Virus record (IMG/VR): IMGVR_UViG_3300032271_000867
Coordinates: 1 to 64,000 of that record
Length of the DNA: 64,000 bases
Strand: one strand, 5' to 3'
DNA from: a virus
Shown: positions 2,400-48,341 of the stretch, in pieces
Layout of the letters: each line of letters starts with the position of its first letter
How positions within the stretch are numbered: the stretch's first letter is position 1
The notes under the pieces: generated by a model
What the model saw: only the letters and a program-made list of their open reading frames with translations
What the model was told of the DNA's origin: nothing
Databases searched by the model: none
Position numbers and translations under genes: made by a program

Positions 2400-3677
2400 A
2401 TGAAAACCACAACACCCAACTCTTTCACTATCTACACAAGTGATGTTCCCCAAACAACTTTTGAGCGACAAGTTTTTGTTGCCAAGTTTGGTGAGATTAC
2501 AAAAATCGCTTCTCGATTGCTTGATCGCAACAGCAATAAGGCGGTTCGCAAAAGCTGGAACTTTGAATCGGCTGCGACTTTTGTTGCTTCGATCTCTGAA
2601 GCCGAACAACTAAAAACAGAACCAATCCAAAGCACTATGCGGGCTAACTTTGTGCAGAACTTCATAGTAGACAACAACCTAAACGCTGCCGGGCTAAAGG
2701 CTGTCAGAGAACTTATGGAAGCAAAACCTATGCTGATTAGCGTTTCTCTAAAAAAAGTTTTGTCTAGCCTTTTCGAGCAAACAAACCTTGAGTTTGAAAC
2801 CGCTGAAATAGCAACACCTGCGCCGGACTTCGCAAACGCTTGGGCGACGCTTTCGATTCCAAAACCTGAGGCACTAACCAATGGCGTTTACTACCCTCGA
2901 ATCGTTGAGAACAAGACGGAACAAGAATGGTATGAAACAGCGCTGGAGTGCAAAATGGCTGTGGCGATTTTTGGCGAAGCTGGAACAGGTAAAACTTCGA
3001 GTGCCGAGGCCGAAGCTGCAAGGCGTAAAGTGCCTTTTGTAGTTATGGAGTGCAACACAATGATCACAGACGAAAAGACCCAGGGGCGCTATGTTCCAAC
3101 GGGTCGTGGCAACGAACTTGAATGGCGTTACAGCGAGTTTGCAACGGCACTAGGGCAAGAATCGGTTATTTTGCTCAACGAAGCCAGTCGTATGTCACCA
3201 AAGGCAAACGCCTTGTTTATGCGTGTGCTTGCCGAGGGTGAGTTGATTATTGACACGCACAAAAACGAGAAAATCACTAAGCACCCACGCTGTTTGATTA
3301 TTGCCGATGCCAACCAAAACTATCGTGGCACGATGAACCCAGACCAAGCGTTCCTAGACCGCTTGCTAGTCAAGCTGGAGTTTCAGTATGACGAGGCGAT
3401 TGAAGCAAAGTTTATCCCTAGCCCTAGTCTGTTAGAGCTGGCTAAAGAGATGCGCCGAGCTGCTGCAACAAACGGCAAGTTTTCGACACCGGTATCAACT
3501 CGCTTGCTAAAAACTTTTGTGTCTATCGCACAGAAACTTAGTTTTAGAGCGGCTGTCTACAACTTCACAAACAACTTCGATCTTGACGAGCGTTCAAGTC
3601 TAAAAATGATGTTTTCAACCTACGCCGAAGCTATTGCTTCTGAACTAGGTGCTGAAACAGAGGATTTTGAGCTATAA
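2400..3677 (+). CDS. CobS/MoxR-like AAA+ ATPase
   Basis: This is a 425-residue protein with a C-terminal AAA+ module. Walker A is GEAGTGKTS at about residues 192-200. The Walker B-like strand is VILLNEASR at about 256-264, and FLDRL near 318-322 fits the arginine-containing segment of MoxR/CobS-type ATPases. The N-terminal 150 residues are helical and not recognised. MoxR-type ATPases work with partner proteins carrying a von Willebrand A domain, and such a gene follows after one base. In CobS-CobT the pair drives cobalt insertion into corrins. Other MoxR pairs mature or remodel metalloenzymes. The substrate here is unknown. The AAG GAA ribosome-binding site lies rather far upstream. Confidence 0.85.
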   Translation: MKTTTPNSFTIYTSDVPQTTFERQVFVAKFGEITKIASRLLDRNSNKAVRKSWNFESAATFVASISEAEQLKTEPIQSTMRANFVQNFIVDNNLNAAGLKAVRELMEAKPMLISVSLKKVLSSLFEQTNLEFETAEIATPAPDFANAWATLSIPKPEALTNGVYYPRIVENKTEQEWYETALECKMAVAIFGEAGTGKTSSAEAEAARRKVPFVVMECNTMITDEKTQGRYVPTGRGNELEWRYSEFATALGQESVILLNEASRMSPKANALFMRVLAEGELIIDTHKNEKITKHPRCLIIADANQNYRGTMNPDQAFLDRLLVKLEFQYDEAIEAKFIPSPSLLELAKEMRRAAATNGKFSTPVSTRLLKTFVSIAQKLSFRAAVYNFTNNFDLDERSSLKMMFSTYAEAIASELGAETEDFEL

Positions 3678-3678
3678 A

Positions 3679-5607
3679 ATGCAACGGATTTCTTTAGATG
3701 ATTTAGACGCAACCGATTTTTTTGATGCAGATGATTTTGACACATTACCTAGCGGTTGGCGTGGTTGCGTTGGTGGCCCGAATCTTTGGTCAGAACAAGA
3801 GCAGCTTCAGCGTGAGATGTTGTCAAAAATGGTGGCTGATGCTGAACGCTACGCAAGCGTTATTTCAAAGCGTGATGTATCTGCACACCTAATCAACAAT
3901 GGTTCTGTTCCTGCTTTCAGCTCGGCGAGCTCGATTACTTTTGTTGCTGAAAAAATCGGACTTTTGACTGAACCCCACGAAGTCGCTGGAGTAAAAGGAC
4001 TAACGCTGCACGAAGTGGCGCACATTATGTTTACCCCACGATCGCAGACACCTTTTGCTCAATGGGCGATCAACAATGCAAAACTTGCCTATCGAGTAGC
4101 GGAAGATGCTCGTATCGAACACTTGTTTTTGGGTCGTTTTGGTAGTTTTGTTTCGCCCTGGCTTATTGCTAGTTGTTTGCGATTTTTGTTGGCAGATGAA
4201 ACCCACATCGTCGTTGCTTACCCTGTGATCGTTGGTCGCAAATACTTGCCTTTGGAAGTTAGACAAGCGGTCAGAAATGCCTACTTGTTTCCGGCAGATG
4301 CTTCGGCTATTCAGTCGCTAATCAACCGCTATCGAGTGCTTGTTTTTGACTCGCAAGAAGCGGTTGATGAAGCTAAGTTGGTTCTTGCAGAACTACAAGT
4401 GCTGCTTGAAAAGTTGCCGTTGATGCAAGACCCAAACGGCCACGAGCAAAGAAGCGATAGCGAACTTGAAACAAGTATCAGCAGACCATTAGCAGCAGAC
4501 GAGCAAAACAAGGCTAAAGCAACGGCTGATAAACGAGGGTTCAAAGATACAACCGACATAAGCGAACAAACTCAAGTTGATAAAGATACAAAACAAAAAC
4601 TTGAGCAGTATGGTCAAAAAGCAGAGTTATTGCCGCCTAATCAAGAGGGTGATGATCCTGCAAATGGCACAGGCGAGAATGACAGCAACAGCGAGGAATC
4701 AAGCAGCGTTAGTGGTCTTACTAAAAATGGTGATGCTAAAAATACTCTTGATCCTGCTGTAAAAGCGGAGTTTGCCAAGTTGTTTGACAGGATTCTTGAC
4801 GAAAATCGAGCTGAAATCGCAAGCGACATAAAGTCGTGGGCAAAGCAGCAAGAGATTCAAGGCGGTATTGTCAAACCTATTGAGAAACACTATTACAGCG
4901 ATAGCGTTCTTGACAACACTACTCACCTAATGGCTAAAAAGTTTGGGCAGCAACTTCAGGAGCTACGCTTACAACACGAACCGGGTTGGGATAAACGAGT
5001 GTCTAGCGGTCGAATCAACGCTGGCCGTTTATTGCGTGGCGCTGATCTTGATGAAGCCTTTGATCGTTTTGACGAGGGCAGAGATGATGCAACCGAGATC
5101 GAGTGCGTTATCTTGTTAGACAAATCGGGTTCTATGGGTGGCGCAAATGCTGATGCAGCTTATCGTGCTATGTATGCTGTCAAAAAAGGACTGCAAGCGT
5201 TACAAGCAAATACTACTGTTGTTCTGTTTGACCATTACACATACCTGCTTTACGAGGCTAAAGACAAAGTAAACAACAGCGTTCGAGATGCTGGTGCAAG
5301 CGGTGGAACAGATGCCACAGGAGCAGTAAATCACGCTCGCAGTCTACTTGCTTCTAGCAGTAAAGCTGTAAAAATGCTGCTAATGATCACAGACGGCGAA
5401 TGGGGTCAGACACCACGCATTGACTTAGAGATTATGGAGTTGCGAAACTCGGGCGTTCTAACGGCGTTCTGTATGATTGGCGATAGCTTTTCAGACAGCA
5501 CTCACAACGCTGAAATCTCTTTGCAAATAAAATCAGCTAAGGACATACTTGCATTAGCAAAGGGTCTAGTGAAGCTGGCTATCAAACGACAACTAACAAA
5601 ATACTAA
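3679..5607 (+). CDS. CobT/NorD-like vWA protein with HExxH motif
   Basis: The ATG at 3679 starts one base after the ATPase stop and gives 642 residues. The N-terminal part has HEVAH at 111-115 and EDARIE at 142-147, a spacing like gluzincin metal sites. An acidic low-complexity linker spans roughly residues 260-370. The C-terminal vWA domain has the MIDAS motif DKSGS at about 481-485, a GGTDATG segment near 541 and ITDGEWG near 571. CobT, NorD and related MoxR partners share the vWA part. The HExxH...EDxRxE combination suggests a bound metal or peptidase activity. The acidic linker recalls CobT. The gene ends at a strong terminator. Function in the phage is unproven. Confidence 0.8.
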   Translation: MQRISLDDLDATDFFDADDFDTLPSGWRGCVGGPNLWSEQEQLQREMLSKMVADAERYASVISKRDVSAHLINNGSVPAFSSASSITFVAEKIGLLTEPHEVAGVKGLTLHEVAHIMFTPRSQTPFAQWAINNAKLAYRVAEDARIEHLFLGRFGSFVSPWLIASCLRFLLADETHIVVAYPVIVGRKYLPLEVRQAVRNAYLFPADASAIQSLINRYRVLVFDSQEAVDEAKLVLAELQVLLEKLPLMQDPNGHEQRSDSELETSISRPLAADEQNKAKATADKRGFKDTTDISEQTQVDKDTKQKLEQYGQKAELLPPNQEGDDPANGTGENDSNSEESSSVSGLTKNGDAKNTLDPAVKAEFAKLFDRILDENRAEIASDIKSWAKQQEIQGGIVKPIEKHYYSDSVLDNTTHLMAKKFGQQLQELRLQHEPGWDKRVSSGRINAGRLLRGADLDEAFDRFDEGRDDATEIECVILLDKSGSMGGANADAAYRAMYAVKKGLQALQANTTVVLFDHYTYLLYEAKDKVNNSVRDAGASGGTDATGAVNHARSLLASSSKAVKMLLMITDGEWGQTPRIDLEIMELRNSGVLTAFCMIGDSFSDSTHNAEISLQIKSAKDILALAKGLVKLAIKRQLTKY

Positions 5608-5672: not shown

Positions 5673-6374
5673 ATGCTAAATCAAGCGTTTCTAAAAGAAC
5701 TAAGTGCATTAGAAAAAACTAACAAAACCGCTGTTTGGGCAGTAGTTAGGTCAGACCAAGCGTGGCGGGTAAACTCAAATGACGCAAAACACAAACAAGT
5801 AAAAGAGCAGCTATGCGAGTTGGCGGTGCTAGTGGACACAATAAAGCGTGATCCTGCTTATCACGCAATCAGAGACTGGAGCAGCAACCCTGATCCTGCA
5901 CACGCCGCTGGTAACGCAAAGTCTTTTGGCTATCTATTCAAGAAAAAAATAAATGGTGTAGATTGCTACCGAGTAGTGCCGGTGCGTGACATTGTGGGTC
6001 AGGAAAGCGATCTTGTTGCTTGGTGGGCAGATACAGCGCTAAGAGATACTTTGGAATCAAGACGCAAAATGAAAATCGAAGTTGCCAGGGTTGATGCCCA
6101 AGCTGAAGTTGAAAACATAAAGAAAAAGATTGAGGCAAACATCAGAGAAATGACCGACAATCTAGTAGACGGATTGGGTGAAAAGTTGATTATCAAACCA
6201 GATGTTAGTATGACTTTTGAAAGCAAAGACACCGCTGATAAAAAAGATGTTGAAATCCAGGTTATCTTTAGTGATCCGAAATGTGACATTACATTGAGCT
6301 ACGAGCAATACCAGCAAATGCTTGAAGTTTTGATGAGATACAAAGACCTAACAGAGCTTGGGTTAGTGGCCTAG
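5673..6374 (+). CDS. Hypothetical protein with central coiled coil (233 aa)
   Basis: The start at 5673 follows an AAAAGGAG site. The protein begins MLNQAFLKELSALEK. Residues about 1-115 contain basic and aromatic segments (GYLFKKKINGVDCYRVVPV). Residues about 128-172 are a charged coiled-coil-like helix (ESRRKMKIEVARVDAQAEV and following), and a beta-rich C-terminus follows. I recognise no family. It lies between two terminators, so it may have its own transcript or arise by read-through of the AAA+/vWA operon. Confidence 0.7.
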   Translation: MLNQAFLKELSALEKTNKTAVWAVVRSDQAWRVNSNDAKHKQVKEQLCELAVLVDTIKRDPAYHAIRDWSSNPDPAHAAGNAKSFGYLFKKKINGVDCYRVVPVRDIVGQESDLVAWWADTALRDTLESRRKMKIEVARVDAQAEVENIKKKIEANIREMTDNLVDGLGEKLIIKPDVSMTFESKDTADKKDVEIQVIFSDPKCDITLSYEQYQQMLEVLMRYKDLTELGLVA

Positions 6375-6516: not shown

Positions 6517-6552
6517 TTGACAAATACTTACCGAGGTAAGTATTCTATTCGT
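6517..6552 (+). promoter_or_regulatory. Promoter with palindromic operator, leaderless start
   Basis: TTGACA at 6517-6522 and TATTCT at 6541-6546 are separated by 18 bp and resemble a sigma70-type promoter. The spacer is almost filled by a perfect inverted repeat: AATACTTACC (6523-6532) and GGTAAGTATT (6535-6544) around GA. The repeat also covers part of the -10 element, so a bound dimer would block RNA polymerase. The expected transcription start falls at about 6553, the A of the ATG, so the mRNA would be leaderless. No Shine-Dalgarno sequence precedes the ATG. The regulator is unknown. Confidence 0.8.
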
Positions 6553-7044
6553 ATGCAAACATTCCTCACGATCGCAAGCACAGACTATGCAGCAACGGCC
6601 AGGACACTAGACAACAAACGCTTGAATAAGCAAGCTCTGGAAGCGTGGCAAATCCTAATGAACCTAACCAAGCTAGACCCGGCTGGTGATTACCGAGAAC
6701 CTAGAGGCTGGAGCAATCACCCGGCCGTCAAGATGTGGAGAGGTAGCGAGGGTAAGTTACTTGAATACATTTTGGCTATGGTCAAAGAGTGGCAAGATCG
6801 TGGCTATAACAGCACCATAGGAGATAAGGCCATAGCAACCTACGAGAGAGCTGTTCAGCTAGGGCTAGTGGGGCAAGAAGCTGACGAGCTGCCAAAATGG
6901 CAAAGCAACCAAGACAAGTTTGAAGCTATTACAAAGACACACCGACAAGCACTTTTAGTCAAAGACTATGAGTGGTATTCGCAGTTTGTTTGGGAAGAAG
7001 ATCTCGGATACAAGCAAGATTCTTATGAGTATGTTTGGGCATAA
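6553..7044 (+). CDS. Pyrimidine dimer DNA glycosylase-like (Pyr_excise)
   Basis: The 163-residue protein begins MQTFLTIASTDYAATARTLD and continues NKRLNKQALEAWQIL, then HPAVKMWRG. This pattern is characteristic of the actinobacterial branch of the pyrimidine-dimer DNA glycosylase family (Pyr_excise, T4 DenV relatives), whose members start MQTFLP with a D-x-x-RL-x-KQ segment and HPAVKMW. The predicted role is base excision of UV photoproducts. The start at 6553 matches the family N-terminus and excludes the TTG at 6517, which is the -35 element. The gene has its own promoter and operator, so it is probably expressed conditionally. Confidence 0.75.
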   Translation: MQTFLTIASTDYAATARTLDNKRLNKQALEAWQILMNLTKLDPAGDYREPRGWSNHPAVKMWRGSEGKLLEYILAMVKEWQDRGYNSTIGDKAIATYERAVQLGLVGQEADELPKWQSNQDKFEAITKTHRQALLVKDYEWYSQFVWEEDLGYKQDSYEYVWA

Positions 7045-8285: not shown

Positions 8286-8509
8286 TGTCTATATACGAAG
8301 ATGGTGGCTCAATAAAAGGATCTGGTGTTGATGCTTTTGAGTTTGAGTATGGTAACTTTACTTGTAAAAATGAAGAATGTTTGCTAGATAACTATGATGC
8401 TGTTGCTTATGGCAATGATTGGGGTTACTGGGAAGTAACCTGTGAAGAGTGCGACGTGCTTCACGACAGTGGAACTCGTAATACGCCGGAAGAGGAGGAG
8501 TGGTGGTAA
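8285..8509 (+). CDS. Small Cys-containing acidic protein (74 aa)
   Basis: The 74-residue protein begins MSIYEDGGSIKGSGVDAFEF. It has two paired-cysteine knuckles, CKNEEC and CEEC, spaced by about 20 residues, so it could bind one zinc ion. It ends with an acidic EEEEWW tail. It is coupled on both sides by TAATG overlaps, and the RBS for the downstream WhiB lies in its last codons. Function is unknown. Confidence 0.65.
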   Translation: MSIYEDGGSIKGSGVDAFEFEYGNFTCKNEECLLDNYDAVAYGNDWGYWEVTCEECDVLHDSGTRNTPEEEEWW

Positions 8510-8817
8510 TGAATCTTCTTATTGATATTTTAGATAGTGAAAAAGCACTGTGCACCCAAGAAAATCCTGATGTTTTCTTTGAAGAAGAAGATGTTGAAAC
8601 TACTCTTTATGCAAAACTTGTTTGTTCAGGATGTTCTCTTGTAGAAACCTGTATTGACAAGGCTATGCAAATTGATGATACTCAAGGAGTATGGGGAGGT
8701 AGCACTACACAGGAAAGATTATTGTTTAGAAAAAAACCTGAATACAAGGAGCTTCATATAGTTATGCTTCGTAAGTATGAGGGCGAAAAAAGTGTTCTAA
8801 ACATTATTCGCAAATAG
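8509..8817 (+). CDS. WhiB-family iron-sulfur regulator
   Basis: The start at 8509 follows AGGAGGAG and overlaps the previous stop as TAATG. The 102-residue protein has the four cluster cysteines of WhiB proteins: C15, then C39-x2-C42-x5-C48. The signature turn GVWGG is at 60-64, followed by a basic segment (TTQERLLFRKK). WhiB proteins bind a 4Fe-4S cluster and act with the host sigma factor. They occur only in Actinobacteria and their phages. It is last in its operon, before a strong terminator, and probably retunes host or phage transcription. Its targets are not visible from sequence. Confidence 0.92.
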   Translation: MNLLIDILDSEKALCTQENPDVFFEEEDVETTLYAKLVCSGCSLVETCIDKAMQIDDTQGVWGGSTTQERLLFRKKPEYKELHIVMLRKYEGEKSVLNIIRK

Positions 8818-8858: not shown

Positions 8859-10895
8859 TTACTGATTGTCTTTGATTAGTTTAATTTCACAAGCGTCTGT
8901 AGTGCAATAGGCCTCGCCAACAGCGTCAATAGCCAATCCAGCATATACACCGGCAAAATCAATCGGGAATAGCTGATTGCCATACTCGGTGTATTCTTCT
9001 TCAGTGATTTGTGTATAAGGCATCTGTGGGTAAACAGTATTGCCCATTGGCAAGAATGATACAGTCTTTAGCTGACCATCGTACATATGGAGCACAGTTC
9101 CAACCGCATTTGCTTCTTGAACAGCATCAAAAGTTACTGTTACTGATACAGAGTTGTCTGACCAGTAACGCTGTGCAGTTGCTGCTAGTGCAATTTTTTC
9201 GTAAATACTGACTTCTTTTTCAGATCTACTTGCACCACTTTTGATAGGGAAAAATACAACAGAGGTAGTTTCAGGAGATTCTGAAGCAGGTTCAACACGA
9301 TACTGGGCCATCTTGAAAAGAGGAAGCATAGGATCGTTATTACCAAAACGAATTGCACGAAGGAAATGCTTGCCACCAGCAGTCCAGTGAACACCAGGAC
9401 TTTCTCCAGCAAGAATAGACACAGTTCCTGAAGGTTTTACAGTAGTCATTTTGATAGATTCACGAACACCAAGCCACTCGGAATAGGTTGTGTCATAAGC
9501 TCTAACTACAGCATAACCTTCATCCATCCACTGACGAAGCACTGGTAGGCCTTTTTCATCTGCAAAGTTTGCTACACCTGAAACTGAAGTTCCAATACGG
9601 CGGTTGCGTTGCATAATAGCGTTGGTTTCTTCCCAGTGAGTTGGGAGCAGTGTTACAGTCTTGGCATATAGGTAGGCAAATTTTAGTGTGCGTTTAAAAT
9701 CTTCCAATGATTCGTGACGATTCAAGTAAGTTTCTACTAATGTACACATCTCAAATGATTCTAGCGATTGTTCAGCACAAGGATTGTAACCAACTACTCG
9801 CCAGTCTTTATTGTTTGGAGCATCTGCCAAACGACTATAAGCACGAGAAGTATCCATCCAAATAACACCAGGTTCACCATTACGAACGATACCATCAACA
9901 ATAGGTTCAAAATCAGTTCCAACTGTTACTTCGACAGAGTTGTTTGACATCCAACCCCATCCCGGTGTTTCAGGATCATAGGAGTTACGTTCTGGAAACT
10001 TTTCTGCATTTTTTAGATTTAAGAAGTTTTCATCATCAATACGACCAATCAACAACTCTGCTGAACGACGCACGTTACCTGAAACTACACAACGACCAAT
10101 CAAGTTACCAATATCGGCAATATCTACACCAGTAAGTAGTTGGCCTTTGCGTCCACGAAAAATATCACGAATTTTTGCGTGTAATGCAAACAATGGATCT
10201 GGGCCACTTGCTGTTCCACCAAAAGTAGCAATTGGAGTTCCATATGGCCTAATCTGGTCATAGTTAAATTCCCAAATAGGTTGATCTGGCTTTAGATAGG
10301 AGTTGATTAGTGCAACAGTTGATTCTTGCCAACCTTCACGAGTGTCAGGAATGTCATAGTTTTGAAAACCGTGAGGTTCATAAATCTCAAATCCTTTGTC
10401 TGCACCTTTATCGTCAAAACCTACGCCAACACCCAACATTGATGCTTCCATCAAAAATGCAAATGGTTTACCTGGATTTTGCTTAGTCATTTCATTAGTA
10501 GAAACAAACGCACAGTTCTGCAAAGCAGCTGAGTTTTTTTGAGTATTTACAATGTCTGTACCCATCACCCACAAACCACGACCCGGTGGTGTCCACTTTA
10601 AATTAAACAAACGATCAAATGCTTCTTTTGCACTTGCTGCTGCTTTTGCGTCTGACCAAGGCAATCGGTTTTGTTTAGCGTGGTCTTTTTGTAGTGAATA
10701 CATTCCATTAATAACACGTGCGCAAACATCTACCCAAGTTTCTTTAGTTCCATCTTCTTTTAGACGGGAATATGTGCGAAGAAAAGTAATTTCACCAACT
10801 GAGTTGCCTGCGACATCTGAATAACCAAATGGAGGTTTCTTATCCTTATATCCTGAAACAAAATCATCAGAAAGTTTAAAGGAAAAATTAGTCAT
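8859..10895 (-). CDS. nrdJ: Adenosylcobalamin-dependent ribonucleoside-triphosphate reductase (class II)
   Basis: The 678-residue protein matches the monomeric class II ribonucleotide reductase type (EC 1.17.4.2), which makes dNTPs using adenosylcobalamin and needs no oxygen or radical subunit. Key residues are visible: C128 in NCAF, the NPCAEQSLE active-site segment with C373 and E375, C384 in FEMC, the CVVSGNVRRSAE segment near 269-280, TVKPSGTVS near 486, and a C-terminal CxxxxC pair (C664, C669) for re-reduction. It is slightly shorter than the roughly 740-residue Lactobacillus enzyme. It ends the long minus-strand unit, just before the bidirectional terminator, and depends on cobalamin from the host. 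Confidence 0.95.
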   Translation of the reverse strand: MTNFSFKLSDDFVSGYKDKKPPFGYSDVAGNSVGEITFLRTYSRLKEDGTKETWVDVCARVINGMYSLQKDHAKQNRLPWSDAKAAASAKEAFDRLFNLKWTPPGRGLWVMGTDIVNTQKNSAALQNCAFVSTNEMTKQNPGKPFAFLMEASMLGVGVGFDDKGADKGFEIYEPHGFQNYDIPDTREGWQESTVALINSYLKPDQPIWEFNYDQIRPYGTPIATFGGTASGPDPLFALHAKIRDIFRGRKGQLLTGVDIADIGNLIGRCVVSGNVRRSAELLIGRIDDENFLNLKNAEKFPERNSYDPETPGWGWMSNNSVEVTVGTDFEPIVDGIVRNGEPGVIWMDTSRAYSRLADAPNNKDWRVVGYNPCAEQSLESFEMCTLVETYLNRHESLEDFKRTLKFAYLYAKTVTLLPTHWEETNAIMQRNRRIGTSVSGVANFADEKGLPVLRQWMDEGYAVVRAYDTTYSEWLGVRESIKMTTVKPSGTVSILAGESPGVHWTAGGKHFLRAIRFGNNDPMLPLFKMAQYRVEPASESPETTSVVFFPIKSGASRSEKEVSIYEKIALAATAQRYWSDNSVSVTVTFDAVQEANAVGTVLHMYDGQLKTVSFLPMGNTVYPQMPYTQITEEEYTEYGNQLFPIDFAGVYAGLAIDAVGEAYCTTDACEIKLIKDNQ

Positions 10896-11113: not shown

Positions 11114-12601
11114 TTAGTCAATAGTTTTTTTGATAATCATTGTTGTTTGATCTTCAGAAATGGGTTGTTGTGCGTCTTTTATTGCCTGCACTCTATCCCC
11201 AAATAATCTAGTTAAAACACCTTGACTTGCATCTCTTTGTGCAGTAATTTGAATAAACTCTTTTTGTTCATCTAATGACTTTAATTTCTCTAACATTTTA
11301 AAATATCTGTCCATTTCTTGTGACAAATTTGGATCTGCGTATCCACCATTTAATTCTTCTGAATACCGCATAAATGCTACTCTTTGGGCTTGCATTTCTA
11401 GCAAAGTAGTATTTAATGCACGTAGTTGTTCTGGTGTTTTTACTTCTACTGGAAGGTTAAACGCACAAGTATTATTTTCTTTAAATGCGGGGCAGTTTGA
11501 TGCAATAAAGCACGTATTACACTGCCTTAATGTGACATTATTTGAGTTTACAATTGGGATATCTTTTAATACATCTTGACCATTTTCATTTTCTACAATG
11601 GTCTTCATTTGATACCCAAAAACAGGCATAGAAGTCATTTCTTGAGGGTCTCTTTGAACCACTTCAGTGCGTTCAACTTTCCGCATCTCTGACCCACTGT
11701 TATTAGAACCACCTATGCCAGTTTCCATCAAACTGGTGTATAGGGTATCATCACTGTTATCAGATACTTTGTCACCTTTTATGAGTTTTAGATCTGGTTT
11801 ATCTTTATCCATTTTTGCTTCTAACTGTAGGTATGACCAAATAGCAACTTTTGTTGCTTCTAGGGTGTCATCATTAATAAATTTTTGAAAATCTAATCCT
11901 GCTTTAGTTACTATATTTTGATAACGTTTACGGGCTTGATCTTTCATTGACTTTGGATATCGGACTAACTTAGTGCCATCCCAAATAATAGTTTCACCTC
12001 TACGCATTGGTGATAACCAACTAAGTGTGCTTGTAGTACTAAACGGTATTTGTCGTAAATTATCTGGTTTTACACTTGCTAAGGCGTGAAATTTAACGTC
12101 ATATTTTCTAGATAAATTTTGAGTAATACCGGCTAGTGCTAGTGATGATTCAATTGCATTATTTGGAATTGCAATATTAGAGTATTCCTCTGACCATTTG
12201 TGCAGTAACATTGTGCCGTAAATATCGTGCCATACTACCCACATCTTTGGGTCATCTTGAAACGCTGCACGTTGCTGCATAATCCAGGGTAATCCCAATG
12301 ATTGTGAATCAAACTCTACCCAACCTTCAATACGATCATAGTTTATTGCAATAAACTCTTCGTAATCTGCTGCGTATTCTTCTAATTCTCTTTGTGATAA
12401 TCCTGCTTTATCTGCTTGTAGTGCACCAGAATCTACCCAAATTTTAAAATTATCTTCAAAATGTTCTGAAATGTAATATTCTTTAGTCTTTGGTAGGCCA
12501 CGTTTTTTTAATCCCCAATAACTAACCATTACATTAGTTGCATTACTTTTGTGCAATAATAACCTATTACTAGGTATCTCTGTTCCACCAAATATAATCA
12601 C
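11114..12601 (-). CDS. TGT/DpdA-like TIM-barrel protein with Cys cluster
   Basis: The GTG start at 12601 forms a GTGA overlap with the upstream stop and gives 495 residues. The N-terminal 240 residues look like a TIM barrel related to tRNA-guanine transglycosylases and phage DpdA: WVDSGAL near 55, IEGWVEFDSQSLG near 91-103, WVVWHDIYG near 121, and TSTLSWLSPMRRG near 190-202. The C-terminal half has a cysteine cluster, RQCNTCFIASNCPAF then TCAF, that could bind zinc, followed by a helical region. DpdA enzymes insert 7-deazaguanines into DNA. No preQ biosynthesis genes are in the window, so the substrate is open. The assignment rests on motif resemblance only. Confidence 0.45.
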   Translation of the reverse strand: MIIFGGTEIPSNRLLLHKSNATNVMVSYWGLKKRGLPKTKEYYISEHFEDNFKIWVDSGALQADKAGLSQRELEEYAADYEEFIAINYDRIEGWVEFDSQSLGLPWIMQQRAAFQDDPKMWVVWHDIYGTMLLHKWSEEYSNIAIPNNAIESSLALAGITQNLSRKYDVKFHALASVKPDNLRQIPFSTTSTLSWLSPMRRGETIIWDGTKLVRYPKSMKDQARKRYQNIVTKAGLDFQKFINDDTLEATKVAIWSYLQLEAKMDKDKPDLKLIKGDKVSDNSDDTLYTSLMETGIGGSNNSGSEMRKVERTEVVQRDPQEMTSMPVFGYQMKTIVENENGQDVLKDIPIVNSNNVTLRQCNTCFIASNCPAFKENNTCAFNLPVEVKTPEQLRALNTTLLEMQAQRVAFMRYSEELNGGYADPNLSQEMDRYFKMLEKLKSLDEQKEFIQITAQRDASQGVLTRLFGDRVQAIKDAQQPISEDQTTMIIKKTID

Positions 12602-13083
12602 TCGAACGACACTCCTTCGCTACGAGTTAATCTTGCATCTTGTGTTCTTGCAATATTTTGACGCTCAATTGCTTGTTCAATATCATTCCATGCCCTTAGT
12701 TTTTTAGGTGCATCTGGCCTAAACTCTGGCCTAGTGTATGATGGAACACCAAACATAATTGATGGAATACCTTGCTCAAATGCAAATGCCCATAACTTTG
12801 GATTATTAGTGATGAGTAGGTCTACTCTACCTAAACTTCTAGCGACCATTACTTGGCGTTCTGCTAGTTCTTCGCCTTCTAGGCGGTATGATGAGTCAAT
12901 AATTCCATCATAATCAACAATTTTGTTGATATCTAACCACTGCTCTAATTGTTGCCGGGGATCTGATGACATTAAAAAAATTTGATTAAATGCAGTTAAT
13001 GTTCCTATTAAAACAATACCAGTGGCAATTGGATCTTCATTTGATCCTTTTAGTACTCCGTTTATATCTACTAATATTTTCAT
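12598..13083 (-). CDS. HAD-like phosphohydrolase-type protein (161 aa)
   Basis: The protein begins MKILVDINGVLKG, which fits HAD motif I, but the second catalytic aspartate is replaced by asparagine (D6, N8). FLMSSDPRQQ near residues 35-44 fits the motif II strand with serine, and VDLLITNNP near 108 fits the late acidic strand. HAD enzymes are mostly phosphatases. The N8 change suggests a weakened, altered or purely binding role. The gene lies between the Zn microprotein and the TGT-like gene and overlaps the latter, so it probably works in the same pathway. Confidence 0.55.
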   Translation of the reverse strand: MKILVDINGVLKGSNEDPIATGIVLIGTLTAFNQIFLMSSDPRQQLEQWLDINKIVDYDGIIDSSYRLEGEELAERQVMVARSLGRVDLLITNNPKLWAFAFEQGIPSIMFGVPSYTRPEFRPDAPKKLRAWNDIEQAIERQNIARTQDARLTRSEGVSFE

Positions 13084-13096
13084 TTGTTATTAGCCT

Positions 13097-13192
13097 TTAA
13101 TCCTCATAACAATCGCATTTGCAGTTATCTTCTACGCAAATTCCGTGGTATAGTTCATGGCCACATTTGTGGCAAGTGTCACTAAATGACAT
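13097..13192 (-). CDS. Zinc-binding microprotein (31 aa)
   Basis: ATG at 13192 overlaps the upstream TAA (TAATG), and the frame runs 31 codons: MSFSDTCHKCGHELYHGI, then CVEDNCKCDCYED. Six cysteines and three histidines in 31 residues, starting with C-x2-CGH, suggest a small zinc ribbon. It fills the gap between two larger genes exactly. The coupling supports expression. Function is unknown. Confidence 0.6.
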   Translation of the reverse strand: MSFSDTCHKCGHELYHGICVEDNCKCDCYED

Positions 13193-14079
13193 TAATTATT
13201 CCTATAAGTTGCTGCTCGTCTAATTAGAGTATTTGTATCTGGCAAATTTACTCCATAATTTGGCATTTTATTATCAAAATCTTTTTTGATATTCTTTAAT
13301 AAATCAATAGTTCCTGAGCTTTTACCTGCTTGCCAACGATAATTGTGGAAATCAGAATAACCTTCACCCGTTGGTGAAAATGCTAGGCTACGATTATTAT
13401 GAATCTCATCATATAATGCGGACGCTTGTTGTCCTGCTAAATTTAATTTAGTTTCTGCGTTACGTTTATTTGCATCATTTCTTGACAAACTAATGTCTTG
13501 AAGTGCTTGGCTGTAACGTGCTGATAGTTGCGTTGCAACTGAATTATCGGATGACGATACTGATTCCCATGCCGGGTTACTTGGTGCAGCTCTATTTGGA
13601 TCTGGGTGAACAGTCCATTCATCATATTTTAAATCATATGCTGCATATGGCTTAATGTTACGAATATCTGTTCCAGTTGGGTTTACATAAAATGTGAGTT
13701 CAAACCCATTCCAGTTGGATGTTTGTGGCTGTAGTTCATCTCTAAAATCTGAATTGATTTGTTGACTAATTTCTGCATCAGACAATCCACGATATTCTGG
13801 GTTTGCTTTGCGAAATTGTTCAAAATTTACTCCAACTAAACAATCTAAGTCTTTTGGAGTTCTGTTGGCTGACCATTGATAAGATACCCCACTACCTGCT
13901 AACCAAGGATGTGCCCATAAATCTGCATGACGATAATGTTTATCTAAAAACCCATACAGCAAACTATTGATTCCAGTTTTGATCCCAGAATGCAAAGACC
14001 TACCCTGGAACAACACAGGATCCAGGGTAGGTGCAGGTAGGCTAAAATACGAAGTGGAGTAGCTACCTAAATTATTCAT
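13192..14079 (-). CDS. Nucleotidyltransferase-fold protein (295 aa)
   Basis: The 295-residue protein contains AGSGVSYQWSANRTPKDLD at about residues 61-79. This fits the nucleotidyltransferase signature hG[GS]-x(9-13)-DhD, with G62, S63, D77 and D79 as the metal-site pair. The upstream segment (SGIKTGINSLLYGFLDKHY) is a helix typical before that motif. The C-terminal half is not recognised. Proteins of this fold transfer nucleotides to proteins, RNA, DNA ends or small molecules, including in toxin-antitoxin systems. It heads the cluster with Zn, HAD-like, TGT-like and RNR genes. Confidence 0.5.
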   Translation of the reverse strand: MNNLGSYSTSYFSLPAPTLDPVLFQGRSLHSGIKTGINSLLYGFLDKHYRHADLWAHPWLAGSGVSYQWSANRTPKDLDCLVGVNFEQFRKANPEYRGLSDAEISQQINSDFRDELQPQTSNWNGFELTFYVNPTGTDIRNIKPYAAYDLKYDEWTVHPDPNRAAPSNPAWESVSSSDNSVATQLSARYSQALQDISLSRNDANKRNAETKLNLAGQQASALYDEIHNNRSLAFSPTGEGYSDFHNYRWQAGKSSGTIDLLKNIKKDFDNKMPNYGVNLPDTNTLIRRAATYRNN

Positions 14080-14088
14080 AGGAATAGT

Positions 14089-14403
14089 TTAGGCGGTTTC
14101 AGCACTGCTTTCTGGCTGAATTCCACGCTCTTTTAGGGCATCTGAAACAACACTTGAAGTTGATGGCTGTTGCTGAGAAGCCATTACTTGCAACCAAGTG
14201 CCTACAATACGATCAGTTAATTGTTGGTTTTTAATTTCAGTAATAATATCTTGAGATACTTTGTAAACATCGTTTACATTTGCATTTCTAGACCCTTTTA
14301 GTGGGGTGTCTAGCTGCTCTAGTTCTGCTCGAAAGGTACCGTCTGTGTGAATAACAATTGCAATAACTGTTTCAATTTCTTTTTCGTTTTCGTTATTTTC
14401 CAT
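14089..14403 (-). CDS. Hypothetical protein (104 aa)
   Basis: The protein begins MENNENEKEIETVIAIVIHT and has a short beta-strand N-terminal part, a helical middle and a polar Ser/Gln-rich C-terminal tail. An AGGAAAG site precedes the start. I recognise no family. It is in the small-gene block between the SpoVS-like gene and the nucleotidyltransferase-like gene, where spacing is tight and all genes share one strand. Confidence 0.65.
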   Translation of the reverse strand: MENNENEKEIETVIAIVIHTDGTFRAELEQLDTPLKGSRNANVNDVYKVSQDIITEIKNQQLTDRIVGTWLQVMASQQQPSTSSVVSDALKERGIQPESSAETA

Positions 14404-14412
14404 TTTTCTTTC

Positions 14413-14973
14413 CTAGTTATACATGCCACGCATAGCACGTTGTTTTGTTACTATTACACTTTGCATTGGACAAAAATTACATAGATAAATTTTTGGTAAT
14501 GCTGCATCTTTGGGTGCTTCTAATCCAGCAGATTTGCGTTCTTTTGCAGTTTTTGGAAGTAATCGCTTACTTTCAGTTCTGTAATCTGCGCAATTATCTT
14601 CTGGCCTTAGATGATAAGTATAGCACGACATTGCATCTTCTGCAAATTGCATTTTAGTACTATAAAAATCGCCTTCTTCAGTCATTGCATCAAGGCCGGT
14701 TACTCCTGTGCCTTTTAGTTGATTAATGATTTCTTTACGATTGCTAGTATTTGCCCATACTTTTACAGGCAAAATAAACATTTTACCTTGATGCCTTAAA
14801 CCTGAAGGAAACTCATGTTTTTCTACTGTCATTTCAAGTAGAATATCTGTTTCAGAAGGCCCATCATGTGGAGGTAATTCATCGATGCTATTGCATACAA
14901 AACACAGTAATAGCCTAATTACCGGTCCGCTGTGTTCAAATTCACGTTTACCAATTAATGGTGCTTCCGCCAT
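14413..14973 (-). CDS. Hypothetical Cys-containing protein (186 aa)
   Basis: The 186-residue protein has LLLCFVCNSIDELPPHDG near residues 22-39 and a second pair LCNFCPMQS near 163. The two C-x2-C knuckles could form one zinc site that brings the ends together. Two further cysteines lie in the middle (MSCYTYHLRPEDNC). An AAGGACT site precedes the start. No enzyme motif is recognised. Confidence 0.7.
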   Translation of the reverse strand: MAEAPLIGKREFEHSGPVIRLLLCFVCNSIDELPPHDGPSETDILLEMTVEKHEFPSGLRHQGKMFILPVKVWANTSNRKEIINQLKGTGVTGLDAMTEEGDFYSTKMQFAEDAMSCYTYHLRPEDNCADYRTESKRLLPKTAKERKSAGLEAPKDAALPKIYLCNFCPMQSVIVTKQRAMRGMYN

Positions 14974-18854: not shown

Positions 18855-19189
18855 AGCTGTTCACCTTTTTGAATTTTTTTCCTACGAGCAACTGATTTAG
18901 TTTGAGGCTCGTCTTTCAAAGACAAAAAGTGCTGAAGGCGCTGACGGTTGTATTCAGACCATGGGTCGTTTAGAGCCATAAGGTCTAACTTCATTTTCAT
19001 GTACTTGATAGCGTCTTTGCTATAGAACTCTCCCTCTTTTGCAGGGCGTAGAGGACCTTTTCTGTCAAACCAACTCCACTTGATTACAAACAGCCATTGT
19101 TTCACTGTTTTTGGTTGAATGAACTCTCGTAGGGTGTGGCGAGATTTTGTCATGCGAGTTAGGTACTTGTTTGTTTCATCGTTGTTCAT
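18851..19189 (-). CDS. Hypothetical protein with KSVARRKKI tail (112 aa)
   Basis: I chose the start at 19189 (MNNDETNKYLTRMTKSRH) because it follows GGAGAAAACAA and overlaps the upstream stop as ATGA. The 112-residue protein is basic and has many aromatic residues (KQWLFVIKWSWFDRKG). Its C-terminus, TKSVARRKKIQKGEQL, repeats that of the gene at 18325. Function is unknown. Confidence 0.68.
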   Translation of the reverse strand: MNNDETNKYLTRMTKSRHTLREFIQPKTVKQWLFVIKWSWFDRKGPLRPAKEGEFYSKDAIKYMKMKLDLMALNDPWSEYNRQRLQHFLSLKDEPQTKSVARRKKIQKGEQL

Positions 19190-19401
19190 TTGTTTTCTCC
19201 TTTGATAAGTTTGGTGTGGTGGCGAACAGCCTTGCATCCTGTGTGAGATTGCATCAGTTTAAATTTACGACAATAAGGGTTTTGACAAGCCAAGTTGTCT
19301 AGCAGTTTGATAATGCGTTCTTCAACTTTTTCAACCCAACGACAAATGCACTGGTCTTTGTCATATTTCCATTTTTCATCACACTCAGGCTTGTGGTTCA
19401 T
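19186..19401 (-). CDS. Small Cys-rich protein (71 aa)
   Basis: The 71-residue protein begins MNHKPECDEKWKYDKDQCIC and has six cysteines and several histidines that could form one zinc site: CDEK, CIC, CQNPYC and GCK. A helix with VEERIIKLLDNLA resembles the ERERII helices of other small genes. The C-terminus is basic. It overlaps both neighbours. Function is unknown. Confidence 0.65.
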   Translation of the reverse strand: MNHKPECDEKWKYDKDQCICRWVEKVEERIIKLLDNLACQNPYCRKFKLMQSHTGCKAVRHHTKLIKGENK

Positions 19402-19642
19402 TTGTTCCCTCGTCTTGTTTAGCTACACGAGCTGCTACTTCTTCGTCAGTCATACGAAGGTCTGAGTACAAAAGCCACATAATGTTTGCTGGTGTGCAGC
19501 TTGGCTTGTAGTAGTAAACATCTAGAATCTGTTGAACAGCGTCTAGAATCCGCTCACGTTCTTGTTGCACTGCTGGCTTAGGCTCTGCAGCGTGAGGTTT
19601 ATCCCAGTAGTGCTTGATGATATCGAAGTAATCTTTACTCAT
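19385..19642 (-). CDS. Small protein with ERERIL motif (85 aa)
   Basis: The 85-residue protein begins MSKDYFDIIKHYWDKPHAAE and carries QQERERILDAVQQIL, again an ERERII-type helix. The C-terminal part (SDLRMTDEEVAARVAKQ) is a second helix. It overlaps the gene on either side. These recurrent helices in four to five small proteins suggest a paralogous family. Function is unknown. Confidence 0.65.
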   Translation of the reverse strand: MSKDYFDIIKHYWDKPHAAEPKPAVQQERERILDAVQQILDVYYYKPSCTPANIMWLLYSDLRMTDEEVAARVAKQDEGTNEPQA

Positions 19643-19976
19643 TAGGCCACTGACCGTCTAGCACCATCATCGCAATGATTGCATAGTTAGCGAGGTCTAG
19701 GAAAGAATCCTTGAGACTTTCATTTTCTGGGTTAGCCCCTGAGTCAACTAGGTTATTAATACGAGCCAGTTTATCCCACATACGAACACGAAGGCCGTTA
19801 AGCGGTCCGCCTGGGCTTAGTGAGATGTTTTTTGGTCCGTAGTCAGCGTGTTTTTTTAGTAGTACGTGTTCAGCTTGAGCAAACTGTTGAGCAAGGTCAT
19901 CTTTAAACTGTAGGTGGGGGATAATTTCATCAGGTAAAGTTGTTTGCTCTGTGTATAGTGATGCCATTTGTGCCAT
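19635..19976 (-). CDS. Nucleotide modification associated domain 1 (DUF1599) protein
   Basis: The 113-residue protein has HADYGPKNISLSP, LRVRMWDKLARINNL, and SLKDSFLDLANYAIIAMMV in order. This is the hallmark of the family called DUF1599 or nucleotide modification associated domain 1, an all-helical MazG/dUTPase-related group found in phages. The KLxRxxxL and D-x-x-NY-x-I-I motifs are typical. It likely acts on nucleotides or base-modification intermediates. It is near the recombination genes and in the same operon as the class II RNR. Confidence 0.8.
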   Translation of the reverse strand: MAQMASLYTEQTTLPDEIIPHLQFKDDLAQQFAQAEHVLLKKHADYGPKNISLSPGGPLNGLRVRMWDKLARINNLVDSGANPENESLKDSFLDLANYAIIAMMVLDGQWPNE

Positions 19977-20422
19977 TATATATTCCTTTTAAAATCGTTT
20001 GATCTACGAGTAATTTCTCTTGAAACTAGTAATAAATCACGCTCATGATTATTTAGTAGCATCTCTACTAATTTACGATAAGCATATTTTTCTTCATACT
20101 GGTTATCAAGTTCAATAATTTCTGGACTAATTGCTACTTCAGCTTTAATAGCAGTTACACGTTCACCTTTTGCTTGAGCTCCCATACGGCGAATTAACAT
20201 CGTACTTTCTAAGAATTCTTTCTTTTTTAAAGATGCACGTTCTTCTAACTGAGCCATTGTAAGCTGTGAGTTAATGTAATCAGTCCATGCAGTTAGTTGA
20301 GTAAATAATCTTCCCAGCTCTTCTGATCCAATATCAGTAATATCTGAAGGCAAAGTTACTTGATCTTCTGATGGTTTGTAGAAGTGTATTCCCCATTCAT
20401 TAAATTTTTCTAATGCACTCAT
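19976..20422 (-). CDS. Hypothetical helical protein (148 aa)
   Basis: The 148-residue protein begins MSALEKFNEWGIHFYKPSED and is nearly all helical, with QLEERASLKKKEFLESTMLI and LLLVSREITRRSNDFKRNI as long charged helices. It directly precedes DUF1599 and follows the Cas4-like exonuclease gene, leaving four bases between. It may be a partner in recombination or end processing, but no family is recognised. Confidence 0.65.
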   Translation of the reverse strand: MSALEKFNEWGIHFYKPSEDQVTLPSDITDIGSEELGRLFTQLTAWTDYINSQLTMAQLEERASLKKKEFLESTMLIRRMGAQAKGERVTAIKAEVAISPEIIELDNQYEEKYAYRKLVEMLLNNHERDLLLVSREITRRSNDFKRNI

Positions 20423-20425
20423 TTA

Positions 20426-21268
20426 CTACTCCTTATATGGGTCACATTGTTTGCAAGTACCACTTGGGTTGTTGGTACATTCTGGAACAACTCCTGCATT
20501 TACTGAGTCTACCACAACTTTTGCTTTGTCAAAAATGTGTTCTACTAAACCAAAGTCAGCTTTTACTGGCTCAAATTCACGGTAATCTTGGTCTGCTTTT
20601 AGTTCATAAAGGAAAATAATTTCAGTAACTTCTTCGTGACCCATACGTTTCATAAGTTCTAAGTACATTTGACCTTGAAGAATGTGACTTGAAAATGGAC
20701 GTTTAATTGCTTTCCATGCCTTCATAAAGTCACCATCAGCTTCTTTCATTAGTTCTGGAGCTTCAAAACGTAATGTACCGGGACCCACTGATTTAATTTC
20801 AATTAGTGCATCACCTTGTGAATCTTTAATCCATCCATCAGTATGGCCTTTAATTCGTAAAGAATCATCTGAGAGAGTTACCTCTGCATAAATAAGGTCT
20901 GGTTTTCCGCATCGATCGCAGGACTCTGGAGAAGTTCCCCAAGTAATCCAATGACAGGCTTGGCATTTAAATTGACCATGCAAAATGCCCATTTCTTGAA
21001 AATATCCTTGCCATTTAGAGTGAACAGCATGGCCGGTATCAAATACAGACTGTAATTTTAACGGAGGTTTTTCTGCAATTTTTGTTTCTCCATTTAGTAA
21101 AAAGTAAGATCCTCGCATACACCAATCTTTTTTTATAATTTCTGAAGGATGTAGTACAGTAGTACTTCGATTACCCGGAGGTCGTTGTAGCAAGTGTCGT
21201 TCTAAATTTCCAATAAGTCTGGTGTTAGTTTTTTTAGCGTCTAAAAAACGCTTTAGTTCTGAGCTCAT
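20426..21268 (-). CDS. Cas4/RecB-like PD-(D/E)XK exonuclease
   Basis: The 280-residue protein has the RecB-type core: GHTDGW (D144), ALIEIKS (E157, K159) and HILQGQMYLEL (the QxxxY motif at 198-202). Cysteines C50 and C264, C272, C275 match the arrangement of an iron-sulfur cluster in Cas4 and AddB-type nucleases. A separate C102-x2-C105...C117-x2-C120 knuckle is inserted before the core and suggests zinc. The predicted role is DNA end resection for recombination with the RecA gene 1 kb downstream. Confidence 0.85.
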   Translation of the reverse strand: MSSELKRFLDAKKTNTRLIGNLERHLLQRPPGNRSTTVLHPSEIIKKDWCMRGSYFLLNGETKIAEKPPLKLQSVFDTGHAVHSKWQGYFQEMGILHGQFKCQACHWITWGTSPESCDRCGKPDLIYAEVTLSDDSLRIKGHTDGWIKDSQGDALIEIKSVGPGTLRFEAPELMKEADGDFMKAWKAIKRPFSSHILQGQMYLELMKRMGHEEVTEIIFLYELKADQDYREFEPVKADFGLVEHIFDKAKVVVDSVNAGVVPECTNNPSGTCKQCDPYKE

Positions 21269-21600
21269 TTATTCCTTATGTTTAGTGTTAGTACAAATTC
21301 TTCTAAAGACATTTTGCCTTTTTTGGTTTTTTGCCATTTTCTTATTAAAGCATTTCTTTCTCTGTGGGACATTCCTCCCCAAATTCCATGCTGTGTGTCA
21401 GTTTCAATTGCTTCCCATAAACAAATATTTTTTACAGGACATGGGGTTGTGCCATTTTCTCCAAAACAATACTTTTTAGCTTGTGTTGCTATTTTTTTAT
21501 ATAAAGACTTATCTCTTGGTGGAAAAAATAGCTCAGTGTCTGCTCCTTCACAAGCAGCTTTGTGCCACCACCTCAGATCGTCATCAGAGTCTTTGTTCAT
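21265..21600 (-). CDS. WhiB-family iron-sulfur regulator with unusual Cys spacing
   Basis: The 111-residue protein has the WhiB layout: WWHKAACEGADTELFFPP (C17), a cysteine region near 45-60, then GIWGG at 72-76 and a basic tail (SHRERNALIRKWQKTKK). The cluster cysteines are C17, C45, C54 and C60. The usual C-x2-C pair is stretched to C45-x8-C54. The FFPP segment and the basic C-terminus otherwise match WhiB. It is a second WhiB in the window, in the nuclease operon. It may bind DNA with a sigma factor. Confidence 0.9.
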   Translation of the reverse strand: MNKDSDDDLRWWHKAACEGADTELFFPPRDKSLYKKIATQAKKYCFGENGTTPCPVKNICLWEAIETDTQHGIWGGMSHRERNALIRKWQKTKKGKMSLEEFVLTLNIRNK

Positions 21601-46799: not shown

Positions 46800-48341
46800 T
46801 TATTGTGAGACAAGCTGGTTGAGGTTAATAACAACAAACTCTGCAGGATACTCAAGAGCAACACCGACTTCGATGTGGACTTCACCACTTGCAATAGTTT
46901 GAGGAGTGTTGTTTTCAGCGTCAATCTTTACGTAAAAAGCGTCAGCAGGAGTAGCTCCAACTAGTCCACCTTGGTTACGATACTGATTTAGGAATACTGA
47001 AATAGAAGTACGAAGTCGTGACCATAGAACTGAGTCGTTGTTTTCAAACAAAGCTGAGTTACCAATGTCTTTAAGATTTTTCTTAATGTAGATCAAACTT
47101 CTACGCATTGAGATGTAACGGTTAGCAGTACCATCCTGAAGAAGAGTACGTGCACCCATAACCACTACACCAGAACCAGGAATGCTACGAATAGCATTTA
47201 CTGAAGAACCATTAGTTCCTCCATTACCAGTGTTTAGGTTATCAAGATCAGTATTAGTAAACTGACGTTCAGTAGCTAATGCGCCCTTAATCTGGGTACG
47301 CAATCCTGCAGGAGATTTAAATGGACCATACTGCTTGTCATTAGCAATAAACAAACCAGCAATTGGACCAGCAGGACCAATCTTACGAAGGTTTCTGCTT
47401 AGTGGATCTTGAATATAAATGTATGGGTAGTAAACTGCAGCTTGACTTGATTTGTAGTTAGTACTATTAGCATAAGTAATTGCATCTGACACTGACAAGT
47501 TAGCAGCAGTATCAAGGACAACAAACACGTCTTTACCACTAGCCCAAGTAATCATGTTTAATTGAACAGCAGCAGGAATACTAGTAGTACTAAATGAATT
47601 AAATAGTTCTGGTGAAAATAGAACTAATGGTTGGTTGATAACTTCAAAATCAGATAGTGCAGTGTTATAGTCAGTAGCTGCAATTGCGCTTCCATCTAAA
47701 CCACTTCCAGTAAATGGAAAAATAGTATTAAGAACAGGAGTTTTTCCTGGATTAGCAGTGCTTACTACTGTAATAAACCTAGAAGTACTGTTGATTACAG
47801 ATTGAATATACGAAGGTGATGTAGGGTCAAAACTTACGTTGTAGTATTGCTCTACAATAACGTCATCTGAAGAACCGGCGGTAACTACTCCTGTAGTAAT
47901 AGTATCTGCAATGCCAGCTTCTTTAGTAAGTGTTACGTTATATTTACCTGCAATAGATCCAGTAGTAAAAGTAATTCTAAAATTAGTACCATCACTACCA
48001 TAACTTAGTGAGTTAATAGTGGCCATTGTAACTGGGGTAGTATCAGTAGATGGAATTGTAATTGATGCTTGACCTGCACCTGAACCAAGTACTCGGCGCA
48101 CGTAAAGGTCTCCACCACCATTTGCAAAGTACTGAGCTACACCAAAAGTTGCAGGGTATGATGGGTTGTATGAACCATACAAGTTAGTAAAGTCATACCA
48201 TGAGTTAATTTTAGTTACTGTTAATGGGCCCTGAGCAAATTGAGCAATTACTGCACCAGTAGCATTAGCAGAAGATGTGTCCGCAATTGGAACACTAGAA
48301 AGAGTTTCATTAATATAAACTCCCGGACGATTGTACGTCAT
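46800..48341 (-). CDS. Tail sheath protein
   Basis: The 513-residue protein starts MTYNRPGVYINETLSSVPIA, the canonical P-G-V-Y-I-x-E phrase of contractile tail sheath proteins. The central region has LFSPELFNSFSTTSIP and SSQAAVYYPYIYIQDPLSRN, and the C-terminal part has ALATERQFTNTDLDNLNTG and RRSLIYIKKNLKDIGNSALF. It is the protein that contracts to drive the tube. It proves a myovirus-like tail for this genome. Confidence 0.95.
   Translation of the reverse strand: MTYNRPGVYINETLSSVPIADTSSANATGAVIAQFAQGPLTVTKINSWYDFTNLYGSYNPSYPATFGVAQYFANGGGDLYVRRVLGSGAGQASITIPSTDTTPVTMATINSLSYGSDGTNFRITFTTGSIAGKYNVTLTKEAGIADTITTGVVTAGSSDDVIVEQYYNVSFDPTSPSYIQSVINSTSRFITVVSTANPGKTPVLNTIFPFTGSGLDGSAIAATDYNTALSDFEVINQPLVLFSPELFNSFSTTSIPAAVQLNMITWASGKDVFVVLDTAANLSVSDAITYANSTNYKSSQAAVYYPYIYIQDPLSRNLRKIGPAGPIAGLFIANDKQYGPFKSPAGLRTQIKGALATERQFTNTDLDNLNTGNGGTNGSSVNAIRSIPGSGVVVMGARTLLQDGTANRYISMRRSLIYIKKNLKDIGNSALFENNDSVLWSRLRTSISVFLNQYRNQGGLVGATPADAFYVKIDAENNTPQTIASGEVHIEVGVALEYPAEFVVINLNQLVSQ

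Follow-up and report, generated by a model that had tools for sequence, protein, structure and literature searches.

A phage MoxR-class ATPase and its CobT-like partner with a putative zincin-type metal site: more likely a protein remodeller than a vitamin B12 helper

Described ATPase-vWA systems and the layout of the locus

Data from the literature indicate that NorQD acts through a finger of the vWA domain, placed in the pore of the ATPase, and through the twist and stretch of the linker between the vWA and N-terminal domains of NorD (PMC13036017). For viruses, a 'cobST' cluster was proposed to chelate cobalt, and the peptidase label of the cyanophage CobT was called a mistake (PMC8651126, Liu et al. 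2021); in addition, the group 2.2 jumbo phages were found to encode a MoxR AAA+ ATPase along with an N-terminal metallopeptidase-vWA protein, for which pair a participation in virion assembly was proposed (PMC7824862, Iyer et al. 2021). On the timing of cobS expression, or on tests, the cyanophage papers contain speculation only.

The window that we analysed, a stretch of 64,000 bases, is part of an 88,412-base IMG/VR virus record (G000). The phage carries a tail sheath gene (46800-48341), which indicates a contractile tail, and a WhiB gene (8500-8817), so that its host is probably an actinobacterium; a second WhiB-like, small Cys-rich ORF was recognised by eye at 21265-21600 on the minus strand. 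The initial annotation had described two ORFs separated by one base, taken them for a CobS/MoxR-like and a CobT/NorD-like protein, and pointed out in the latter a HEVAH...EDARIE site and a vWA domain. The ORF pair is as described, with the ATPase upstream, the partner downstream, and both intact; the site and the domain are present and conserved in the relatives; and both identities were borne out by profile and structure comparisons. The features of the pair are the following:

2400..3677, plus strand: MoxR-class AAA+ ATPase (NorQ/CbbQ/CobS-like), an intact ORF of 425 aa
3679..5607, plus strand: CobT-like partner with an N-terminal zincin-motif domain and a C-terminal vWA, 642 aa from the ATG
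3790..4428, plus strand: N-terminal domain of the partner (residues 38-250), AlphaFold2 pLDDT 96.3 and pTM 0.92
4009..4023, plus strand: HEVAH of the partner (residues 111-115), with HExxH in 50/50 viral relatives
4102..4119, plus strand: EDARIE of the partner (residues 142-147), Glu142 being a putative third metal ligand and invariant together with Arg145
5119..5133, plus strand: DKSGS of the partner MIDAS (residues 481-485), the rest of the MIDAS being T544 and D572

Sequence, conservation, and models of the two proteins

The ATPase matched AAA_5 (1.6e-11) and PHROG 249, named 'porphyrin biosynthesis' (3.7e-28), and possesses the conserved motifs of a MoxR-class enzyme: Walker A (GEAGTGKT), Walker B (LLNE), and sensor 1 (N305). 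Its invariant residues are K198 in Walker A, E261 in Walker B, N305 in sensor 1, and the arginines R321 and R352. When the ATPase profile was compared with structures, the best match was Midasin (1e-146), followed by CbbQ/NorQ (1e-44 to 2e-44) and CobS (8e-36), and the single sequence had CbbQ/NirQ/NorQ as its best matches (1e-5). By these comparisons, the ATPase is closer to NorQ/CbbQ than to CobS. A scan of IMG/VR with the ATPase alone through short exact peptide patterns, an insensitive method, returned no relatives.

The partner matched VWA (4.6e-9), and its MIDAS is complete (DxSxS...T...D). Taken alone, the window sequence reached CobT_C at just E=0.13 and did not match PF06213; its profile could be aligned with cellular CobT from end to end (hhalign 99.6%, E=6e-24), and it matched the solved CobT structure (PDB 9uka) at E 4e-22. 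The 50 viral relatives share only 17-36% identity with the window partner, and the sole residues that are invariant among them are H111, E112, H115, P120, E142, and R145, so that the HExxH together with the downstream glutamate and arginine is steadier than the MIDAS itself. Conservation of the metal site at such a low identity lies far beyond chance. Among the 81 cellular CobT sequences compared, all of them alphaproteobacterial, none has HExxH, and HDxxxH...ExxRxE is read at the matching place; the phage partner thus departs from a CobT-type N-terminal domain, in which the HExxH is lacking. On this contrast, CobT would seem to be related to a metallopeptidase-vWA protein and to have lost the catalytic site.

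The model of the N-terminal domain yielded nothing significant in a Foldseek search against the PDB, the best match being selecase, a minigluzincin (E 1.4, probability 0.57), and the leading weak matches (E>1) were minigluzincins and other zincins. The zincin identity is therefore strongly indicated by the motif, and the fold is suggested. The full-length model was obtained at a pLDDT of 81.7, with a long, low-confidence acidic linker, disordered over about residues 255-350, between the N-terminal domain and the vWA. Its best Foldseek matches were the NorD vWA in NorQD complexes and the MIDAS domain of Midasin, and the vWA of ORF892 from the Acidianus two-tailed virus (ATV) was also among the structural matches.

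Distribution of the pair, its neighbours, and the class II ribonucleotide reductase

A profile search of IMG/VR resulted in 80 loci, and in 76 of the 78 where both genes were found these were adjacent with the ATPase first. The two exceptions, L002 and L003, have the reverse order with one gene in between; the intervening protein, of about 215 aa, is conserved (11726-12379, plus strand, in L003). Strict pairs in isolates belong to Gordonia and Brevibacterium phages, where they are annotated as 'AAA-ATPase' or 'porphyrin biosynthesis' and 'CobT-like'. Remoter pairs occur in T4-like cyanophages; in phages of Rhizobium, Pseudomonas, Salmonella, Vibrio, Tsukamurella, and Roseobacter; in phage DSL-LC01, toward whose type of partner the A3 profile is less sensitive; and in an IncC plasmid. 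Most of the remoter CobT-like proteins checked keep the HExxH (those of the cyanophages syn9 and P-SSM2, of DSL-LC01, RHEph10, SSU5, and the IncC plasmid, along with CRP-810, Forza, TIN4, Nimi13, and Mae-Yong1326-1, and in ICP2 as HECYH); the third-ligand glutamate is less constant, a downstream EDxRIE being clear only in some. The HExxH is absent from three CobT-like viral proteins, those of Pseudomonas phage Nican01, Stenotrophomonas phage ANB28, and Thermus phage P23-45 (a weak match), and the site is accordingly dispensable in some lineages. When GTDB genomes were scanned with the viral profile, again by the insensitive method of short exact peptide patterns, no cellular relative emerged.

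The IncC plasmid NZ_CP095603 (L088, 2681-10674) bears a cluster composed of an AAA ATPase, ssb, bet, an exonuclease, a DUF3150 protein, and the HExxH-vWA protein, and vWA proteins of this type are present in many plasmids. We found no literature that tied the IncC/SXT operon to the ATPase/vWA pair.

As to the neighbouring genes, the initial annotation had stated that the ORFs before and after the pair (882-2357 and 5673-6374) were of no recognised family and might complete the system. The first part of that statement stands; the second does not, since none of the 80 loci has in its flanks a homologue of the ORFs at 882-1430, 1531-1821, 1821-2357, or 5673-6374. Farther downstream are the following genes:

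6517..7044, plus strand: pyrimidine-dimer DNA glycosylase (Pyr_excise), a neighbour outside the system
8859..10895, minus strand: class II ribonucleotide reductase (RNR) gene nrdJ (TIGR02505, 1.3e-100; PHROG 367, 2e-136)
11114-12601, minus strand: queuine tRNA-ribosyltransferase-like gene (TGT; PHROG 887, 1.8e-57)
12598-13083, minus strand: small gene that belongs to no named family, given the label HAD by its look

Matches to Pyr_excise flank the pair in 38 of the related loci, and in the Roseobacter phage CRP-810, which has an unrelated backbone, the pair is also followed by a gene named pyrimidine-dimer glycosylase. The genes at 11114-12601 and 12598-13083, together with nrdJ and 13192-14973, make up a block conserved in about 40 related loci; the product of 11114-12601 is a possible DpdA-like enzyme for 7-deazaguanine modification of DNA. 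In other lineages most of the neighbours that bear a name encode DNA polymerase, primase/helicase, SSB, ligase, nucleases, and RecA, and none of the 25 neighbour families shown is structural.

The adenosylcobalamin-dependent RNR reported at 8859-10895 is real, and the absence of CobN, also reported for this phage, extends to all 50 pair-bearing viral records, the 88412 bases of G000 included; the host may have a CobN of its own. In contrast, the working idea of the initial annotation that the pair supports cobalamin chemistry for that RNR was not upheld. At first the figures looked favourable: 35 of the 50 records have a class II RNR, three a class I, and in 12, which may be fragments, none was found, and in most of the 33 cases where it was located nrdJ lies 2-9 kb downstream of the pair and convergent with it, two further contigs being split at their ends. 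Block synteny and the partner tree overturned that impression. The proximity of nrdJ is explained by the synteny of one block within a single phage lineage, namely ATPase-vWA-(glycosylase)-nrdJ-TGT-HAD-13192-14413. On the tree of the partner, the class II, class I, and none labels require only two changes, which is the minimum, and one of these is a shift to class I within the sister group of the window (L051/L052), where the pair is retained; in L052 the pair and the TGT block are kept and nrdJ is gone. The grouping of L051 with L052 (95/94) is drawn as sister to window plus L009 (92/93), within a five-member group that also contains L045 (99/97).

Outside the lineage, 15 phage isolate records and the IncC plasmid (a tally from which other Gordonia isolates with a strict pair are left out) comprised two with a class II RNR, six with a class I, and eight with none. 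The two class II cases are DSL-LC01 and P23-45, the latter with a weak vWA match (1e-4), and one of the eight, cr10_1, matched with the ATPase and not with the partner. Conversely, nrdJ is common where the pair is missing: its relatives were detected in 1146 phage records, mostly of Mycobacterium and Streptomyces phages, which are absent from the tblastn matches of the pair. In 28 of 33 nrdJ loci that extend a full 10 kb downstream the pair was missing from that stretch, in 27 of them along with the TGT block, and of 33 whole nrdJ records 14 have a relative of the partner and 19 have none, four of the latter being longer than 100 kb. The survey of phages thus revealed no recurrent independent association between the pair and class II RNR, and there is no consistent link with CobN; nrdJ is a syntenic neighbour of the pair.

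With respect to nrdJ itself, the window NrdJ shares 77% identity with its counterpart in the Actinomycetia phage DSL-LC01. Since the two backbones look different, aquatic actinophages may have exchanged nrdJ horizontally. In L033, which also bears the pair, a class II RNR at the same place (19023-20960, minus strand) is distant from the nrdJ of the lineage (200 versus about 1200 bits).

Proposed function, alternatives, and comparison with known systems

Since all the parts of NorQD, namely ring ATPase, vWA with MIDAS, linker, and N-terminal domain, have their counterpart here, we infer an ATP-driven remodeller that brings a target to a metal site and is probably a peptidase, and we judge it somewhat probable that the two proteins form a remodelling machine of the MoxR-class AAA+/vWA type, with a zincin-type metal site preserved intact on the vWA subunit. 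The reading as a peptidase or a remodeller of a host complex, which the initial annotation had held as its alternative, is the one that the results favour. The ring assembly, metal binding, proteolysis, and target class that we infer would operate as follows: the ATPase would form a hexamer, on which ring the vWA of the partner would dock as NorD does on NorQ, and the MIDAS would bind a target protein; ATP-driven twisting would then be passed through the acidic linker to the N-terminal domain, where zinc would be bound at the HExxH...E site and the remodelled target would be either cut or, in a non-proteolytic machine, gripped through the metal. Likely targets would be proteins handled during phage DNA replication or repair, or a host complex that is being taken over, which class we propose because the pair sits among genes of DNA metabolism. 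A narrower version of this machine, which we regard as a long shot, would be a protease for clearing viral nucleoprotein, in which the MoxR ring would drive a vWA-tethered zincin to strip or cleave proteins stuck on DNA in replication and recombination; such a protease would be the analogue in mobile elements of Cdc48/p97-Spartan, and CobT would have arisen from it, or alongside it, by loss of the catalytic site.

Among the alternatives, a chaperone of virion assembly that processes structural proteins by proteolysis (PMC7824862, by analogy with the MoxR-vWA of the Acidianus two-tailed virus) is the one that survives best, though we still find it unlikely. The domain architecture is that of the published MoxR AAA+ and metallopeptidase-vWA proteins, and the ORF892 vWA speaks in the same sense; nevertheless, the pair lies beside replication and repair genes and not beside head or tail genes, and the IncC plasmid, which is conjugative and makes no virions, carries the homologous pair within its ssb-bet-exo cluster, so that virion assembly is unlikely as the general role. 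A second possibility, that the HExxH holds a metal for delivery to a metal centre as NorQD does with iron for NO reductase, would agree with the circumstance that NorQD and CobST, to which the pair is structurally closest, both serve to insert metals; but no single metalloenzyme tracks the pair across lineages when the RNR classes, the only ones tested, are considered, and the HExxH with a glutamate in the next helix is the pattern of a catalytic zincin rather than of a known delivery site, so that we give this possibility little credence. Even less probable, in our estimation, is that the pair attacks a defence or regulatory complex of the host by ATP-driven unfolding and cleavage. Its rapid divergence (25-37% identity, against 66-80% for nrdJ in the same genomes) would be expected under conflict, and its presence on a conjugative plasmid fits; still, no defence system or host target is linked to it, and divergence alone is no proof. 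Finally, that the pair and a host CobN insert cobalt and thus raise the adenosylcobalamin available to class II RNR, as proposed in general terms (PMC8651126), appears the least credible of all in view of the synteny, the class I sister group, the isolates, the many phages with a close nrdJ and no pair, the absence of CobN from the 50 records, the closeness of the ATPase to NorQ/CbbQ, and the intact HExxH, despite the full-length homology to CobT, the proximity and frequency of nrdJ in the lineage, and the presence of both pair and nrdJ in DSL-LC01.

The preferred reading, a remodeller that perhaps cuts proteins, is thus more likely than a vitamin B12 helper, which distinction has consequences because 'CobS/CobT' genes are tallied in many virus surveys as auxiliary metabolic genes for vitamin B12. 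If the viral partner were a remodeller of the protease type, those gene counts and the ecological inferences derived from them would be wrong, and the pair would represent a widespread machine of phages and plasmids.

With regard to the known systems, the pair is related to the NorQD/CobST group and would work like it. With CobS-CobT it shares the homology of the partner over the full length, and differs in that CobT reads HDxxxH, in that the viral pair lacks CobN, and in that the ATPase is nearer to NorQ/CbbQ, which apart from Midasin is its best sequence match. NorQ-NorD and Midasin/Rea1 provide the best structural match of the partner vWA; in the phage the N-terminal domain carries the HExxH, and no NO reductase is present here. 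The viral 'cobST' genes of PMC8651126 (Gordonia, Brevibacterium, and cyanobacterial phages) are direct homologues with the same adjacent ATPase and vWA partner; the HExxH and glutamate kept in the viruses and gone from cellular CobT argue against regarding the peptidase label as a mistake, and the link to class II RNR does not hold across lineages. The pairs of the group 2.2 jumbo phages, as judged from their description in the text rather than from sequences, have the same two-gene, three-domain architecture, whereas the setting here and on the IncC plasmid points to modules of DNA metabolism instead of virion assembly. Viral CobST pairs and MoxR-vWA-metallopeptidase pairs have been published already, and the window pair joins them; what is new is that its metal site is set against that of cellular CobT, and that the RNR link is refuted for the lineage of the window.
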